A stretch of DNA of 64,000 nt, taken from contig NZ_CP031165.1 of NCBI RefSeq assembly GCF_003344865.1, positions 2,981,910 through 3,045,909 of the forward strand. Direction: 5' to 3'. The DNA is from Euzebya pacifica. GTDB taxonomy: Bacteria > Actinomycetota > Nitriliruptoria > Euzebyales > Euzebyaceae. Shown here piece by piece: positions 58,294 through 63,835 of the stretch. The stretch's first letter is position 1, and the number at the start of each line of letters is the position of its first letter. Both the position numbers and the translations under genes were made by a program. Under the pieces are notes generated by a model. It saw nothing but the letters and a program-made list of their open reading frames with translations, had not been told where the DNA came from and ran no database searches.

Positions 58294-58390
58294 CGGTTGT
58301 CAAGCGCCCGGAAACACCCGTGAAACGGGAACTTCATCCCCTTCGTCATGGATGTCGGTCAGGGTTGTCCCATTGGGCGGGGAGAAGAAG

Positions 58391-58412
58391 TTGACATTGA
58401 CGTCAATGTCAA
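58391..58412. promoter_or_regulatory. Perfect 22-bp palindrome upstream of the fatty-acid gene cluster
   Basis: The arm TTGACATTGAC is followed directly by its exact reverse complement. It stands alone in an AT-richer patch, 77 bases before the first gene. TTGACA at 58391-58396 could also be a -35 box with AATGGT 17 bases on, so a protein bound here would block RNA polymerase. The form suits a TetR-type lipid-responsive repressor. No such regulator gene is in the window. Confidence 0.6.
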
Positions 58413-58488: not shown

Positions 58489-58803
58489 ATGTTCGACGTC
58501 GTCACCGACATCCCCGCCGCCAACGAGATCGAGAGCTTCGCCGGCACCGTCGCGGACCGCATGTCCATCGCGGTCGCCCCGTCCCAGGGACGCTTCGCCC
58601 CGGCCATCGACGCCCCGGCCACCGTCGCCCCCGGCGACATCATCGGCCACATCACCGGTGGCAACGGCCGTGCGGACGCCGTCATCGCCCCGATCGGCGC
58701 CACCCTCAAGGAGATGCTGGCCCGCCCCGGTCAGCTCGTCGGCCTCGGCCAGGGACTGGCCTACATGGAGCGCGTGGCCCCCACCGGCCTCGAGTCCGCG
58801 TAG
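58489..58803 (+). CDS. Biotinyl/lipoyl-carrier-like protein lacking the acceptor lysine
   Basis: A 104-residue protein. From about residue 25 it follows the BCCP layout: AVAPSQGRFAP matches the SPMVGTFY strand, VAPGDIIGHI matches the VGD.LC.IEAM turn, AVIAPIGATLKEML matches the A..G.VK.IL strand, and GQLVGLGQGLAYM matches the closing GQPVEF..PL strand. The hairpin where biotin carriers have AMKM reads GGNGRADA (residues 57-64), so there is no lysine to biotinylate; the only lysine is Lys74. The gene leads the fabH-acpP-fabF-accD-fabI cluster, behind a palindromic site. A non-biotinylated structural or regulatory ACC partner is plausible. The assignment is by eye. Confidence 0.6.
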   Translation: MFDVVTDIPAANEIESFAGTVADRMSIAVAPSQGRFAPAIDAPATVAPGDIIGHITGGNGRADAVIAPIGATLKEMLARPGQLVGLGQGLAYMERVAPTGLESA

Positions 58804-58845: not shown

Positions 58846-59862
58846 ATGACTCACCACCAGCACGTCCCCGCCATGGTCCTCGCCGGACTGGGCGCGTACC
58901 TGCCGGAGGAGGTCGTGACCAACGACGACCTCTCCCGGGTCATGGACACCTCCGACGAGTGGATCTCCTCTCGCACGGGGATCAGTCAGCGTCGACGTGC
59001 GGCCGAGGGGCAGACCTCGCTGCACCTCGCCGTCGAGGCCGGACGCGAGGCGCTCAAGCATCACGGTGAGGGCACGGCGATCGATGCGGTCGTCGTGGCC
59101 ACCTCCACGCCGCATCGGCTGTGCCCGGCCACGGCCCCGGACGTCGCCACGGCGCTCGGACTCGGCCACGTCCCCGCCTTCGACGTCGCCGCGGTCTGCA
59201 GCGGGTTCGTGTACGCCGCAGCCACGGCCCAGGGCCTGATCGCGGCCGGCACCGCGCGGACCGTGCTGGTCATCGGCAGCGACGTCTTCTCCAGCTTCCT
59301 GTACCCGAGCGACCGCAACACGCGGGTCATCTTCGGTGACGGTGCCGGCGCGGCGGTCGTTCGCGCCGGCGACCACGACGAACCGGGCGCGTTCGGCGCC
59401 TTCGACCTGGGATCCGACGGTGAGGGGTCGGACCTGATCACCATCGGTGGCGGCGGCAGCATGCCGCCCAGCGAGGACGCCCCTGCCGGCCGGGACCAGT
59501 TCCTGGCCATGGAGGGTCGCGAGGTCTATCGCCGATCCATCCCCGGCATGGCCGATTCCTGCCGGGTCGCGCTGGATCGGCGCGGCTGGTCCATCGAGGA
59601 CGTCGACGTCATGATCGGCCACCAGGCCAACATCCGCATCCTCGACGCCGTCGCCCGCAACCTCGACCTCGAGCGCGAGCGGTGCTACGTCAACATCGAC
59701 CGGGTCGGCAACACCGCAGGGGCCTCCATCCCCATCGCCATGACCCATGCCCACGCCGACGGTGCCGTGCGTGCTGGCGACAAGGTGCTCCTGACGGCGT
59801 TCGGGGCCGGGCTGACGTGGGGATCCACCACGCTGACCTGGCCCGAGCTGCCCACCATCTGA
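58846..59862 (+). CDS. fabH: 3-oxoacyl-ACP synthase III (FabH)
   Basis: A 338-residue KAS III. The N-terminus has VLAGLGAYLPEEVVTNDDL and TSDEWISSRTGIS. The catalytic cysteine is in FDVAAVCSGFVYA, the histidine in GHQANIRI and the asparagine in VGNTAGASIP. It condenses acetyl-CoA or branched starter CoA with malonyl-ACP to begin fatty acids. The ATG is at 58846, 42 bases after the carrier-like gene. A hairpin at 59881-59898 separates it from acpP. Confidence 0.94.
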   Translation: MTHHQHVPAMVLAGLGAYLPEEVVTNDDLSRVMDTSDEWISSRTGISQRRRAAEGQTSLHLAVEAGREALKHHGEGTAIDAVVVATSTPHRLCPATAPDVATALGLGHVPAFDVAAVCSGFVYAAATAQGLIAAGTARTVLVIGSDVFSSFLYPSDRNTRVIFGDGAGAAVVRAGDHDEPGAFGAFDLGSDGEGSDLITIGGGGSMPPSEDAPAGRDQFLAMEGREVYRRSIPGMADSCRVALDRRGWSIEDVDVMIGHQANIRILDAVARNLDLERERCYVNIDRVGNTAGASIPIAMTHAHADGAVRAGDKVLLTAFGAGLTWGSTTLTWPELPTI

Positions 59863-59986: not shown

Positions 59987-60223
59987 ATGTCTGTCTACAC
60001 CAAGATCGTCGCCCTGCTGGACGACAAGTTCGGCATCGCTGCCGACGAGGTCACCGAGACCACCACGTTCGAGGAGCTCGACCTCGACTCCCTCGACCTC
60101 GTCGAGTTCTCCATGGCCGCCGAGGACGAGCTCGGCGTGAAGATCGAGGACGAGGAAGCCGCCGAGCTCAAGACCGTCGGCGACGCCGTCAAGCTGCTGG
60201 AGTCCAAGGGCGCGTCGGTCTAG
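59987..60223 (+). CDS. acpP: Acyl carrier protein
   Basis: A 78-residue, acidic four-helix ACP. The phosphopantetheine serine is in the DSL motif of LDLDSLDLVEF (about residue 37), and the recognition helix SMAAEDELGVKIEDEEA follows. It carries growing acyl chains for FabH, FabF and FabI. The ATG at 59987 has gaagga 8 bases upstream. It is cotranscribed with or separately promoted from fabH, 124 bases downstream of it. Confidence 0.96.
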   Translation: MSVYTKIVALLDDKFGIAADEVTETTTFEELDLDSLDLVEFSMAAEDELGVKIEDEEAAELKTVGDAVKLLESKGASV

Positions 60224-60293: not shown

Positions 60294-61508
60294 ATGAGCA
60301 CACCCGTTGCGATCACCGGCATCGGCCTGGTCACCCCCGGCGGTATCGGGGCTGCGGCCTCCTGGGAGGCGGTCCTCCGAGGCGAGAGCACGGCCACGCC
60401 CGACCCCGTCCTGGAGGGCATGGACGTCGACTTCTCCTGCCGGATCCCGGACTTCGACGCCAACGCCCTGCTGGGCCGACGTGCTCGGAAGCTGGACCGG
60501 TTCGTGCAGCTCGCGCTGGTGGCGGCCCGTGAGGCGATCGCCGACGCGGACCTCGACCACGAGACCTGGGACGGTCCGCGCGTCGGCGTCGTCCTCGGGT
60601 GTGGCATGGGCGGGGCTCCCACGTGGGAGGAGCAGCACGGCGTGCTGATGGAACGGGGCCCCAACCGGGTGTCCCCGCACCTCATCCCACGGATGATCCC
60701 CAACATGGCGGCCGGGCACATCGCCATGGACTTCGGCGCGCACGGCCCGAACCTGGCCACGGCCACCGCCTGCGCGTCGGGGGCGACCGCCATCGGCTAC
60801 GCCCTGGACCTGCTGCGGGTCGGACGGTGCGACATCGTCATCGCCGGTGGCACCGAAGCGGGCATCACGCCGCTGTCGATCGCCGGCTTCAACAACATGA
60901 CGGCCCTGTCGACCCGTCGCGACGACCCCACCGCCGCGTCCCGGCCGTTCGACGCCGGCCGCGACGGCTTCGTCGCCGCCGAGGCCGCCGGTGTGCTGGT
61001 GCTCGAGCGGGTCGCCGACGCCGACGCCCGTGGCGTGCGGACCTACGCGAAGCTTGCCGGCTACGGCGCCAGCGCCGACGGACACCACGTGACCGCACCG
61101 GACCCGCAGGGTGCCGGCGGCGAGATGGCCGTCCGGGCCGCGCTGGCCGATGCCGGCCTCGAACCGGGCGACATCGACCACGTGAACGCCCACGGGACCT
61201 CGACCCCGCTCAACGACGTCTCCGAGGCCCGGATGATCGCCCGTGTCCTTGGCGACCGTCCGGCGGTGACGTCCACCAAGGGCGTCACGGGGCACGCGCT
61301 GGGTGGCGCCGGGGCGATCGAGGCCGCGTTCAGCGCCTTGACCCTGCACCACCAGGTGATCCCGCCGACCGCGAACCTCGACAGCCAGGACCCGGAGATC
61401 CAGATCGACGTGGTCTCCAAGGCCCCCCGCGAGACGAAGGTCGAGGCCGTGATCTCCGACTCCTTCGGGTTCGGTGGCCAGAACGCCGTCCTGGCGTTCA
61501 CCGCCTGA
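60294..61508 (+). CDS. fabF: 3-oxoacyl-ACP synthase II (FabF)
   Basis: A 404-residue KAS II. The catalytic cysteine is in TATACASGATAIGYAL, the two histidines in NAHGTSTPLND and KGVTGHALGGAGAIEAAF, and the C-terminal ISDSFGFGGQNAVLAF is typical. It elongates acyl-ACP with malonyl-ACP. The ATG at 60294 has agagga upstream. It lies between acpP and the carboxylase beta subunit. Confidence 0.95.
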   Translation: MSTPVAITGIGLVTPGGIGAAASWEAVLRGESTATPDPVLEGMDVDFSCRIPDFDANALLGRRARKLDRFVQLALVAAREAIADADLDHETWDGPRVGVVLGCGMGGAPTWEEQHGVLMERGPNRVSPHLIPRMIPNMAAGHIAMDFGAHGPNLATATACASGATAIGYALDLLRVGRCDIVIAGGTEAGITPLSIAGFNNMTALSTRRDDPTAASRPFDAGRDGFVAAEAAGVLVLERVADADARGVRTYAKLAGYGASADGHHVTAPDPQGAGGEMAVRAALADAGLEPGDIDHVNAHGTSTPLNDVSEARMIARVLGDRPAVTSTKGVTGHALGGAGAIEAAFSALTLHHQVIPPTANLDSQDPEIQIDVVSKAPRETKVEAVISDSFGFGGQNAVLAFTA

Positions 61509-61553: not shown

Positions 61554-62999
61554 ATGACCGACACCCAAGCGCCCGTCCAGCGGCCCGACGCCCGGGGCCG
61601 GATCGACACGCTCGCCGACGACGGCTCCTTCGTGGAGTTCGGATCGCAGGCACGTCACCACGTGACCGCCTTCGGCCTTGCCGACAAGCGTCCCGATGGT
61701 GACGGCGTCGTGACCGGCACCGTCACCGTCGACGGCCGTCCGGTCGCCCTGTTCGCCCAGGACCCCACCGCGCTCGGCGGTTCGCTCGGCGAGGTGCACG
61801 CCCAGAAGATCGCCATGGTCCAGGACAAGGCCAGCCGCGGTCGCATCCCGGTCGTCGGCCTCCTCGACAGCGGTGGGGCCCGGATCCAGGAGGGGGTCGC
61901 CGCACTCGACGGCTACGCCCACATCTTCCACCGCAACGTCCGGTCCTCCGGTCGTGTCCCGCAGATCTCCGTGGTCCTCGGCCCCTGCGCCGGTGGCGCG
62001 GTGTACTCCCCGGCCCTGACCGACGTCGTGATCATGGCCCGGGATCGTGCCCACATGTTCGTGACGGGACCCAAGGTCGTGAAGGCCGTGACGTTCGAGG
62101 ACGTCTCGCTGGCCGACCTCGGAGGTGCCGACGTGCACTCCACCACGAGCGGCGTGGCCCACCTGGTCGCCGATGATGCCGAGGGTGCGCTGGAGCTGAC
62201 CCGACGGGTCCTGTCCTACCTGCCGTCCTCGGCCTGGGAGGAACCACCGCTGGCCGCGCCGGTCCCGCCCGAGGCGATGCCGGAGATCCCCACCGACCAC
62301 CGCCAGCCCTACGACGTGCGCGACGTGATCCGCGGGATCGTCGACGGCGGCTCGATGTTGGAGCTCTCCGAGGCGTTCGCCCGCAACATCGTCACCTCCT
62401 TCGCGCGCATGGACGGCCGTCCCGTCGGTGTCGTCGCCAACCAGCCGTCGGTGCTGGCTGGGTGCCTCGACATCGCCGCCAGCGAGAAGGCCGCCCGGTT
62501 CGTCCGGTTGTGCGACGCGTTCGGGTTGCCCCTGGTGGTCCTGGTCGACGTCCCCGGGTTCCTGCCCGGCACCGGCCAGGAGTCCGCGGGCATCATCCGC
62601 AAGGGCGCCAAGCTGCTGTACGCCTTCTCCGAGGCGACGGTGCCGCGGGCGACGGTGATCCTCCGCAAGGCCTACGGCGGCGCGTACATCGTCATGAACT
62701 CGCGCAACATCGGTGCCGACGCGGTCTACTCGTGGCCGGGTGCGGAGGTTGCGGTCATGGGTGCAGAGGGTGCGGTCGACGTGCTGTATCGCCGCCCGAT
62801 CGCCGAGGACCCGGCGAGCCGACCGGAGTACCTCGCCAAGTACAAGGCCGAGGCCCTGCGTCCCGACCTGCCCAACGAGATCCTGAGCGTCGACGAGACC
62901 ATCGACCCGGGTGACACCCGCAGGGTGCTCCTCGGGACCCTCAACGCGGTTCGCGGATCGCTGGAGCCCGGTTTCCGACACGACAACCTGCCGCAGTAG
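61554..62999 (+). CDS. accD: Acyl-CoA carboxylase carboxyltransferase (beta) subunit, PccB/AccD type
   Basis: A 481-residue protein with both carboxyltransferase halves. The N-half has GGSLGEVHAQKIAMVQDKA, DSGGARIQEGV and GPCAGGAVYSPALTDVVIM. The C-half has GRPVGVVANQPSVLAGCLD, LVDVPGFLPGTGQE and RKAYGGAYIVMNS. It moves CO2 from a biotin carrier to acetyl- or propionyl-CoA. It lacks the N-terminal zinc finger of E. coli AccD and is the single-chain actinobacterial form. A biotinylated alpha subunit is not in the window. Its cluster-mate at 58489 is carrier-like but has no biotin site. Confidence 0.93.
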   Translation: MTDTQAPVQRPDARGRIDTLADDGSFVEFGSQARHHVTAFGLADKRPDGDGVVTGTVTVDGRPVALFAQDPTALGGSLGEVHAQKIAMVQDKASRGRIPVVGLLDSGGARIQEGVAALDGYAHIFHRNVRSSGRVPQISVVLGPCAGGAVYSPALTDVVIMARDRAHMFVTGPKVVKAVTFEDVSLADLGGADVHSTTSGVAHLVADDAEGALELTRRVLSYLPSSAWEEPPLAAPVPPEAMPEIPTDHRQPYDVRDVIRGIVDGGSMLELSEAFARNIVTSFARMDGRPVGVVANQPSVLAGCLDIAASEKAARFVRLCDAFGLPLVVLVDVPGFLPGTGQESAGIIRKGAKLLYAFSEATVPRATVILRKAYGGAYIVMNSRNIGADAVYSWPGAEVAVMGAEGAVDVLYRRPIAEDPASRPEYLAKYKAEALRPDLPNEILSVDETIDPGDTRRVLLGTLNAVRGSLEPGFRHDNLPQ

Positions 63000-63037: not shown

Positions 63038-63835
63038 ATGACCAGCCAGACCACCGACCTGCCCCAGCTCCTCGCCGGCAAGCGCCTGCTCGTGACGGGC
63101 GTCCTCACCGAGGCGTCGATCGCCTTCGCGACCGCCCGCATGGCCCAGCAGCTGGGCGCAGAGATCGTCCTGACCGGGTTCGGCAAGGGCATCCGGTTGA
63201 CGACCCGGGTCGCCGAACGGCTGCCGTCCACCCCCGACGTGCTGGAGATGGACGTCACCGACATCGAGCAGATGGGTGCCGTCGTGGCCGAGCTCGGTGA
63301 CCGGTGGGGTGCCGTCGACGGCGTGGTGCACGCCATCGGCTTCGCACCGGCGAGCGCCATCGGGGGCAACTTCCTGGAGACCCCGTGGGAGGACGTCGCT
63401 ACCGCGGTGCAGGTGTCGACCTACAGCTTCGCGTCCCTCGCCCGGGTCATGGCTCCCCTGCTCAAGGCGGGCGGCGGCGGCTCCTACGTGGGACTGGACT
63501 TCGACGCGACCGTCGCCTGGCCCAGCTACGACTGGATGGGGGTGGCCAAGGCGGGGCTGGAGAGCGCCTGTCGGTACACCGCCCGTGAGCTCGGCGCCCA
63601 GGGCACCCGGGTCAACCTCGTCGCCGCAGGCCCCCTGAAGACCATGGCGGCCCGGCAGATCGAGGGCTTCAAGTCCTTCGAGGACACCTGGGGCGAACGC
63701 GCCCCCCTGGGCTGGGACATCACCGACACCGAACCGGTGGCGCGAGTGGTGTGCAGCCTGCTGGGGGACTGGATGCCCGGGGTCACCGGCGAGATCGTCC
63801 ACTGCGACGGGGGCGTGCACGCGATCGGTGCGTGA
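63038..63835 (+). CDS. fabI: Enoyl-ACP reductase, InhA-like FabI
   Basis: A 265-residue SDR-type enoyl reductase, very like InhA. It has [74 protein letters not shown] with the catalytic Tyr-x6-Lys pair, and [15 protein letters not shown]. It reduces trans-2-enoyl-ACP with NADH in the last step of each elongation cycle. The ATG is at 63038, 38 bases after accD, completing the cluster. InhA-type enzymes are the target of isoniazid-derived adducts in mycobacteria. Confidence 0.94.

Follow-up and report, generated by a model that had tools for sequence, protein, structure and literature searches.

A lysine-less biotinyl-domain protein in the fatty-acid synthesis cluster of Euzebya pacifica and its genetic link to an AccD-type carboxyltransferase

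Introduction

Acetyl-CoA carboxylase (ACC) is the source of the malonyl-CoA on which fatty-acid synthesis runs. Biotin carboxyl carrier proteins (BCCPs) such as AccB, the 1.3S protein of transcarboxylase (TC) and the BCCP of P. horikoshi share the biotinyl-domain fold (PF00364) and the E-x-M-K-M motif with its biotinyl lysine. Small non-catalytic proteins have been described in carboxylases. The BADC proteins of the heteromeric, four-part ACC of plant plastids, which serves fatty-acid synthesis, are BCCP-like but devoid of the biotinylation motif; they are reported to bind BCCP and biotin carboxylase (BC), and inhibition was first suggested for them by in vivo work, whereas they are now described as assembly glue (PMC11926652). 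The use of a lysine-less BCCP relative as a non-catalytic subunit has been presented as a peculiarity of the plant enzyme (PMC11926652). The epsilon subunit (AccE/PccE, PF13822; e.g. that of TfAcCCE) belongs with the carboxyltransferase (CT) of carboxylases having a fused BC-BCCP subunit and raises Vmax 20- to 100-fold via assembly (PMC7835884). The activation of such carboxylases by non-catalytic subunits thus has precedent (PMC7835884, PMC11926652).

In this study, we describe a protein, designated P0001, that is encoded in a fatty-acid synthesis (fab) gene cluster of Euzebya pacifica, within a stretch of 64,000 nucleotides referred to below as the window. The family to which it belongs resembles BADC in the loss of the motif and in the fatty-acid context, but it is bacterial, its members comprise about 75-130 residues, and it is linked to a CT of the fused type (AccD/PccB-like) and not to a four-part heteromeric ACC. 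Moreover, the genomic link of P0001 is to the CT subunit, whereas BADC is reported to act on BCCP and BC. No description of the lysine-less family was found in the open-access papers searched, and the family, which extends across the Actinomycetota, has apparently gone undescribed so far.

The P0001 gene and its genomic context

The features of the locus are collected in Table 1. The P0001 frame translates, as a first-pass annotation of the sequence had stated, to a protein with a single lysine (Lys74), and accD is indeed the fourth gene downstream, behind fabH, acpP and fabF. An upstream opening at position 58348 would extend the protein to 151 residues; the start MFDVVTD, which is common to the relatives, argues against it. 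When P0001 alone was searched against 61 genomes (the window's own and those of 60 relatives, most of which belong to its class), homologues with 83-97% identity turned up in two of the genus's three further genomes. Other genera within the order contributed homologues with 38-56% identity. Nearly all of these genes stand immediately 5' of fabH, a position that weaker relatives from another order of the class share. The dN/dS ratio of the gene is about 0.08-0.25 (NG86). The open reading frame is therefore a real gene, whose frame, start and place are kept in the homologues and whose dN/dS lies below 0.3. A chance or antisense reading frame was rejected because of this conservation under purifying selection, and a pseudogene because the frame is open in 30 genomes of the class.

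Table 1 Features of the fab cluster in the window
Feature	Position	Strand	Evidence or remark
22-bp perfect palindrome TTGACATTGACGTCAATGTCAA, putative cluster operator	58391..58412	.	76 bp 5' of the P0001 start
P0001, lysine-less biotinyl-domain protein, 104 aa	58489..58803	+	Barrel-sandwich core, approximately residues 24-96; Gly60 in place of the biotinyl lysine
fabH, beta-ketoacyl-ACP synthase III	58846..59862	+	Pfam/NCBIfam
acpP-like acyl carrier protein, 78 aa, ATG at 59987	59987..60223	+	ORF, conserved place, DSLD motif and context
fabF, beta-ketoacyl-ACP synthase II	60294..61508	+	TIGR03150 above cut-off
accD-type carboxyltransferase, 481 aa, proposed partner	61554..62999	+	PF01039, E 2e-161; own clade
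fabI, enoyl-ACP reductase	63038..63835	+	NF005908 above cut-off

The palindrome TTGACATTGACGTCAATGTCAA has a single full match genome-wide, with a chance expectation of none in the window, and exact or near copies are found 5' of the homologous gene in most of the Euzebyales loci examined. Copies are likewise present in a genome from which the gene is gone (G016) and at loci where the gene stands with accD alone (L096/L097). A fatty-acid regulator probably has its operator in this palindrome. The corresponding locus of G016 (L139, 8669-8782) has the palindrome and fabH without the lysine-less gene between them but retains accD; this natural deletion is useful for comparison.

Fold and homology to biotinyl domains

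With P0001 alone as query, no Pfam family was matched, NCBIfam gave weak matches only (BCCP-like at E 0.067) and a PADLOC scan returned nothing, so that the resemblance to biotin carriers required profile and structure work to become visible. A profile of 24 family members detected in the PDB the biotinyl domain of TC 1.3S (E 3.8e-14) together with other BCCPs, and one member of the family passed the PF00364 cut-off. An AlphaFold2 model was calculated from P0001 together with nine relatives. The core of P0001 was predicted with a pLDDT of 93-97; the top Foldseek match of the model was the biotinyl domain of E. coli ACC (1bdo, TM 0.80 on the target), VIA-align superimposed the model on the P. 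horikoshi BCCP with a Z of 12.4 (1.3 A over 70 residues), and the first eight entries of the VIA-align listing were biotin carriers only. The seven strands recur in the model of a distant family member, which stems from an uncultured actinobacterium (mean pLDDT 86). The biotinyl-domain fold that had been proposed from the sequence of P0001 is thus borne out on the predicted model, and the family is, as judged from profile and model comparisons, homologous to biotinyl domains. The barrel-sandwich hybrid domains of the lipoyl and HlyD types belong to the same fold class; P0001 differs from them in having no lipoyl lysine and no membrane-fusion context and in being encoded by a gene of its own within a fab cluster, and its assignment as a lipoyl or HlyD domain was rejected for the missing lysine and context.

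Loss of the biotinyl lysine

The hairpin that would hold the biotin reads GGNGRADA (residues 57-64), in accordance with the initial reading. When reference carriers were aligned to the family profile, Gly60 fell in the column of the biotinyl lysine, and the structural ranges agree. None of 60 distinct family members has a lysine in this column, which is mostly occupied by glycine, so that the loss of the lysine first noticed in P0001 holds for the whole family. The E-x-M-K-M motif is missing in all 60; since its absence was used to tell members from ordinary carriers, this count means that the fabH-adjacent members lack the motif, not that every biotinyl domain does. Biotinylation at this place is impossible in these proteins, and P0001, judged by its sequence, descends from biotin carriers but has lost the means to be biotinylated at the usual site. 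A functional BCCP was accordingly rejected on account of the absent lysine. The searches made, including those of Pfam and NCBIfam, revealed no family with a different established role.

Three weak matches had been set aside from the 60 members: a near-cut-off BCCP (L194), a lipoyl-type domain (L013) and a carboxylase fragment (L014). The first of these is an AccB-like ORF whose score with the BCCP model, 106.5 bits, falls slightly short of the curated cut-off and which has ELMKTF in place of EAMKM; its genome (G184) also carries the lysine-less protein.

The hairpin itself might have acquired another function, P0001 then carrying a different group or binding a small molecule, with a sensor or carrier role that has nothing to do with ACC subunits. 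Biotinyl-like folds serve in many contexts, and within the Euzebyales the hairpin is conserved as TGGxGRADxV, but no nucleophile is conserved at its tip, the residues of which differ in other lineages, and such a function would leave the genetic link to accD described below unexplained. We consider it very improbable.

Distribution in the Actinomycetota and joint occurrence with accD

When 396 Actinomycetota genomes were searched with a profile and the loci were then read, members of the P0001 family came to light in several families outside the class. A scan of contigs with one subgroup gave 11 loci of uncultured Actinomycetota; the same scan with P0001 alone found no relatives. Downstream of the 60 members lies directly fabH (55 members) or accD (two members); for the remaining three none of this set of genes was resolved, two of them reaching contig ends and one being a paralogue near an accD-like ORF.

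The AccD proteins of the fab clusters form a clade of their own, separate from the PccB-type carboxyltransferases that these genomes also encode. Among the 61 genomes, 29 have both the P0001-type protein and this AccD, one has the protein only, two have accD only and 29 have neither (Fisher p 6e-14); in other words, the two occur together in 29 of the 32 genomes that have either. The corresponding numbers for the 33 genomes of good quality are 18, 0, 2 and 13 (p 2e-7). In the only genome with the protein alone (G060), the contig stops before the position of accD, and the two genomes with accD alone (G016, G031) indicate that the protein is not indispensable. Clusters that lack the protein also lack accD wherever the downstream region is readable, and where both are missing, fabH and usually also acpP, fabF and fabI remain; the jointly lost genes are not neighbours in the cluster. 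As the relatedness of the genomes is a concern for any co-occurrence, it was checked on the FabH tree, on which the protein and accD each change about 9 or 10 times. All five informative independent pairs agree and none disagrees, and the sign test reaches only p 0.06 because such pairs are few. In one genome (G017), the whole cluster is present twice (L108, L148), each copy with the lysine-less gene and accD. Within the class, the genetic link of the P0001-type gene to accD is strongly supported.

The link to AccD, which had been proposed from the position of the gene four places upstream, is therefore strengthened in the class by joint presence and absence, but it is not seen throughout the phylum. 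Outside the class, two lineages show the order gene-fabH-acpP-fabF-accD, and most members lie beside fab genes only, with no accD nearby; in the wider phylum, most of the member genomes have a PccB-type carboxyltransferase elsewhere and no AccD of the fab clade. The constant neighbour there is fabH, so that AccD is not proven as the partner everywhere. This distribution allows a role tied to FabH, in which the protein would act on FabH or on initiation by FabH and ACP, as a scaffold or regulator joining malonyl-CoA supply to initiation, and the accD link of the class would be secondary. The position of fabH directly 3' of the gene, which is shared across many families of the phylum, and the absence of accD from the majority of clusters outside the class speak for it. 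FabH, however, is present in 55 of the 61 genomes irrespective of the protein, whereas the protein goes with accD, and in two genomes (G018, G023) the lysine-less gene directly precedes accD and fabH is located elsewhere. On balance, we regard a FabH partner as unlikely, albeit the most serious of the alternatives.

Relation to the epsilon subunit and to heteromeric ACC

P0001 and epsilon have in common that they are small and, for P0001 presumably, non-catalytic and that both are connected with a CT, in the case of P0001 by the genetic link. The epsilon model PF13822 did not match P0001 in the Pfam search. Fifteen of the 61 genomes contain a match above cut-off. In 13 cases the match is located within 3 kb of a PccB-type CT, and the fab AccD never has one nearby; the match in the window's own genome, which is located elsewhere, is again near a PccB-type CT. 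Genes for epsilon thus stand beside PccB-type CTs, whereas the P0001 gene is tied to the accD of the fab cluster, a pattern that fits a possible division of labour in which the PccB-type CT would be served by epsilon and the fab AccD by the lysine-less protein. No standalone AccB of the E. coli type was found above the curated cut-off in the 30 genomes that have the protein, which makes a heteromeric ACC of the E. coli type unlikely as its partner.

Proposed role of the lysine-less protein

Because the protein has no biotinyl lysine and, within the class, appears and disappears along with one subunit of a carboxylase, it is probably a non-catalytic partner of this enzyme, comparable to BADC in plants. 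For P0001, the reading we favour, with somewhat more confidence than doubt, is that of a small, BCCP-derived, non-catalytic partner of the acyl-CoA/acetyl-CoA carboxylase formed by the operon-encoded AccD, acting in assembly and activation or in capping. P0001 would still fit the surfaces that recognise biotinyl domains and would dock where such a domain docks, i.e. on the CT hexamer or on the fused BC-BCCP subunit. From there it may help to assemble and activate the complex, as epsilon does, or cap it, as BADC may do, and thereby set the supply of malonyl-CoA for FabH and FabF. Since epsilon promotes assembly and BADC is now seen as assembly glue, activation would be the likelier sign of the effect.

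An inhibitor in the sense first suggested for BADC in vivo (PMC11926652) would rival the biotinylated carrier domain for its sites on BC or CT, thereby reducing the activity of the carboxylase. The retention of the full biotinyl fold with a glycine at the lysine position would suit such a competitor, but more recent studies in plants, and likewise the epsilon subunit of actinobacteria, indicate assembly and activation (PMC11926652, PMC7835884), and the clustering of the gene with accD would better fit a subunit made in stoichiometric amounts. Inhibition therefore appears quite improbable to us, less probable than a FabH partner.

Beyond the single protein, the favoured role as a carboxylase partner can be extended, tentatively and with less confidence than doubt, to the whole lysine-less family, which would then be a phylum-wide dedicated non-catalytic carboxylase subunit, a bacterial counterpart of BADC, standing in for epsilon with one class of AccD and linking the production of malonyl-CoA to chain initiation by FabH. 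The P0001 family and BADC are likely of separate origin, and P0001 is better regarded as an analogue of BADC and epsilon than as an established member of either. A bacterial family analogous to BADC would suggest that enzymes have more than once taken up a dead biotin carrier as a partner, and the P0001 system, being small, is one in which the question of whether BADC is an activator or an inhibitor could be tested.

A second lysine-less biotinyl-like domain was observed in another genome (G246; L082, about positions 297-1049) within a frame of 251 codons. It lies close to an accD-like ORF (33% identity) and is possibly a paralogue with a different partner.
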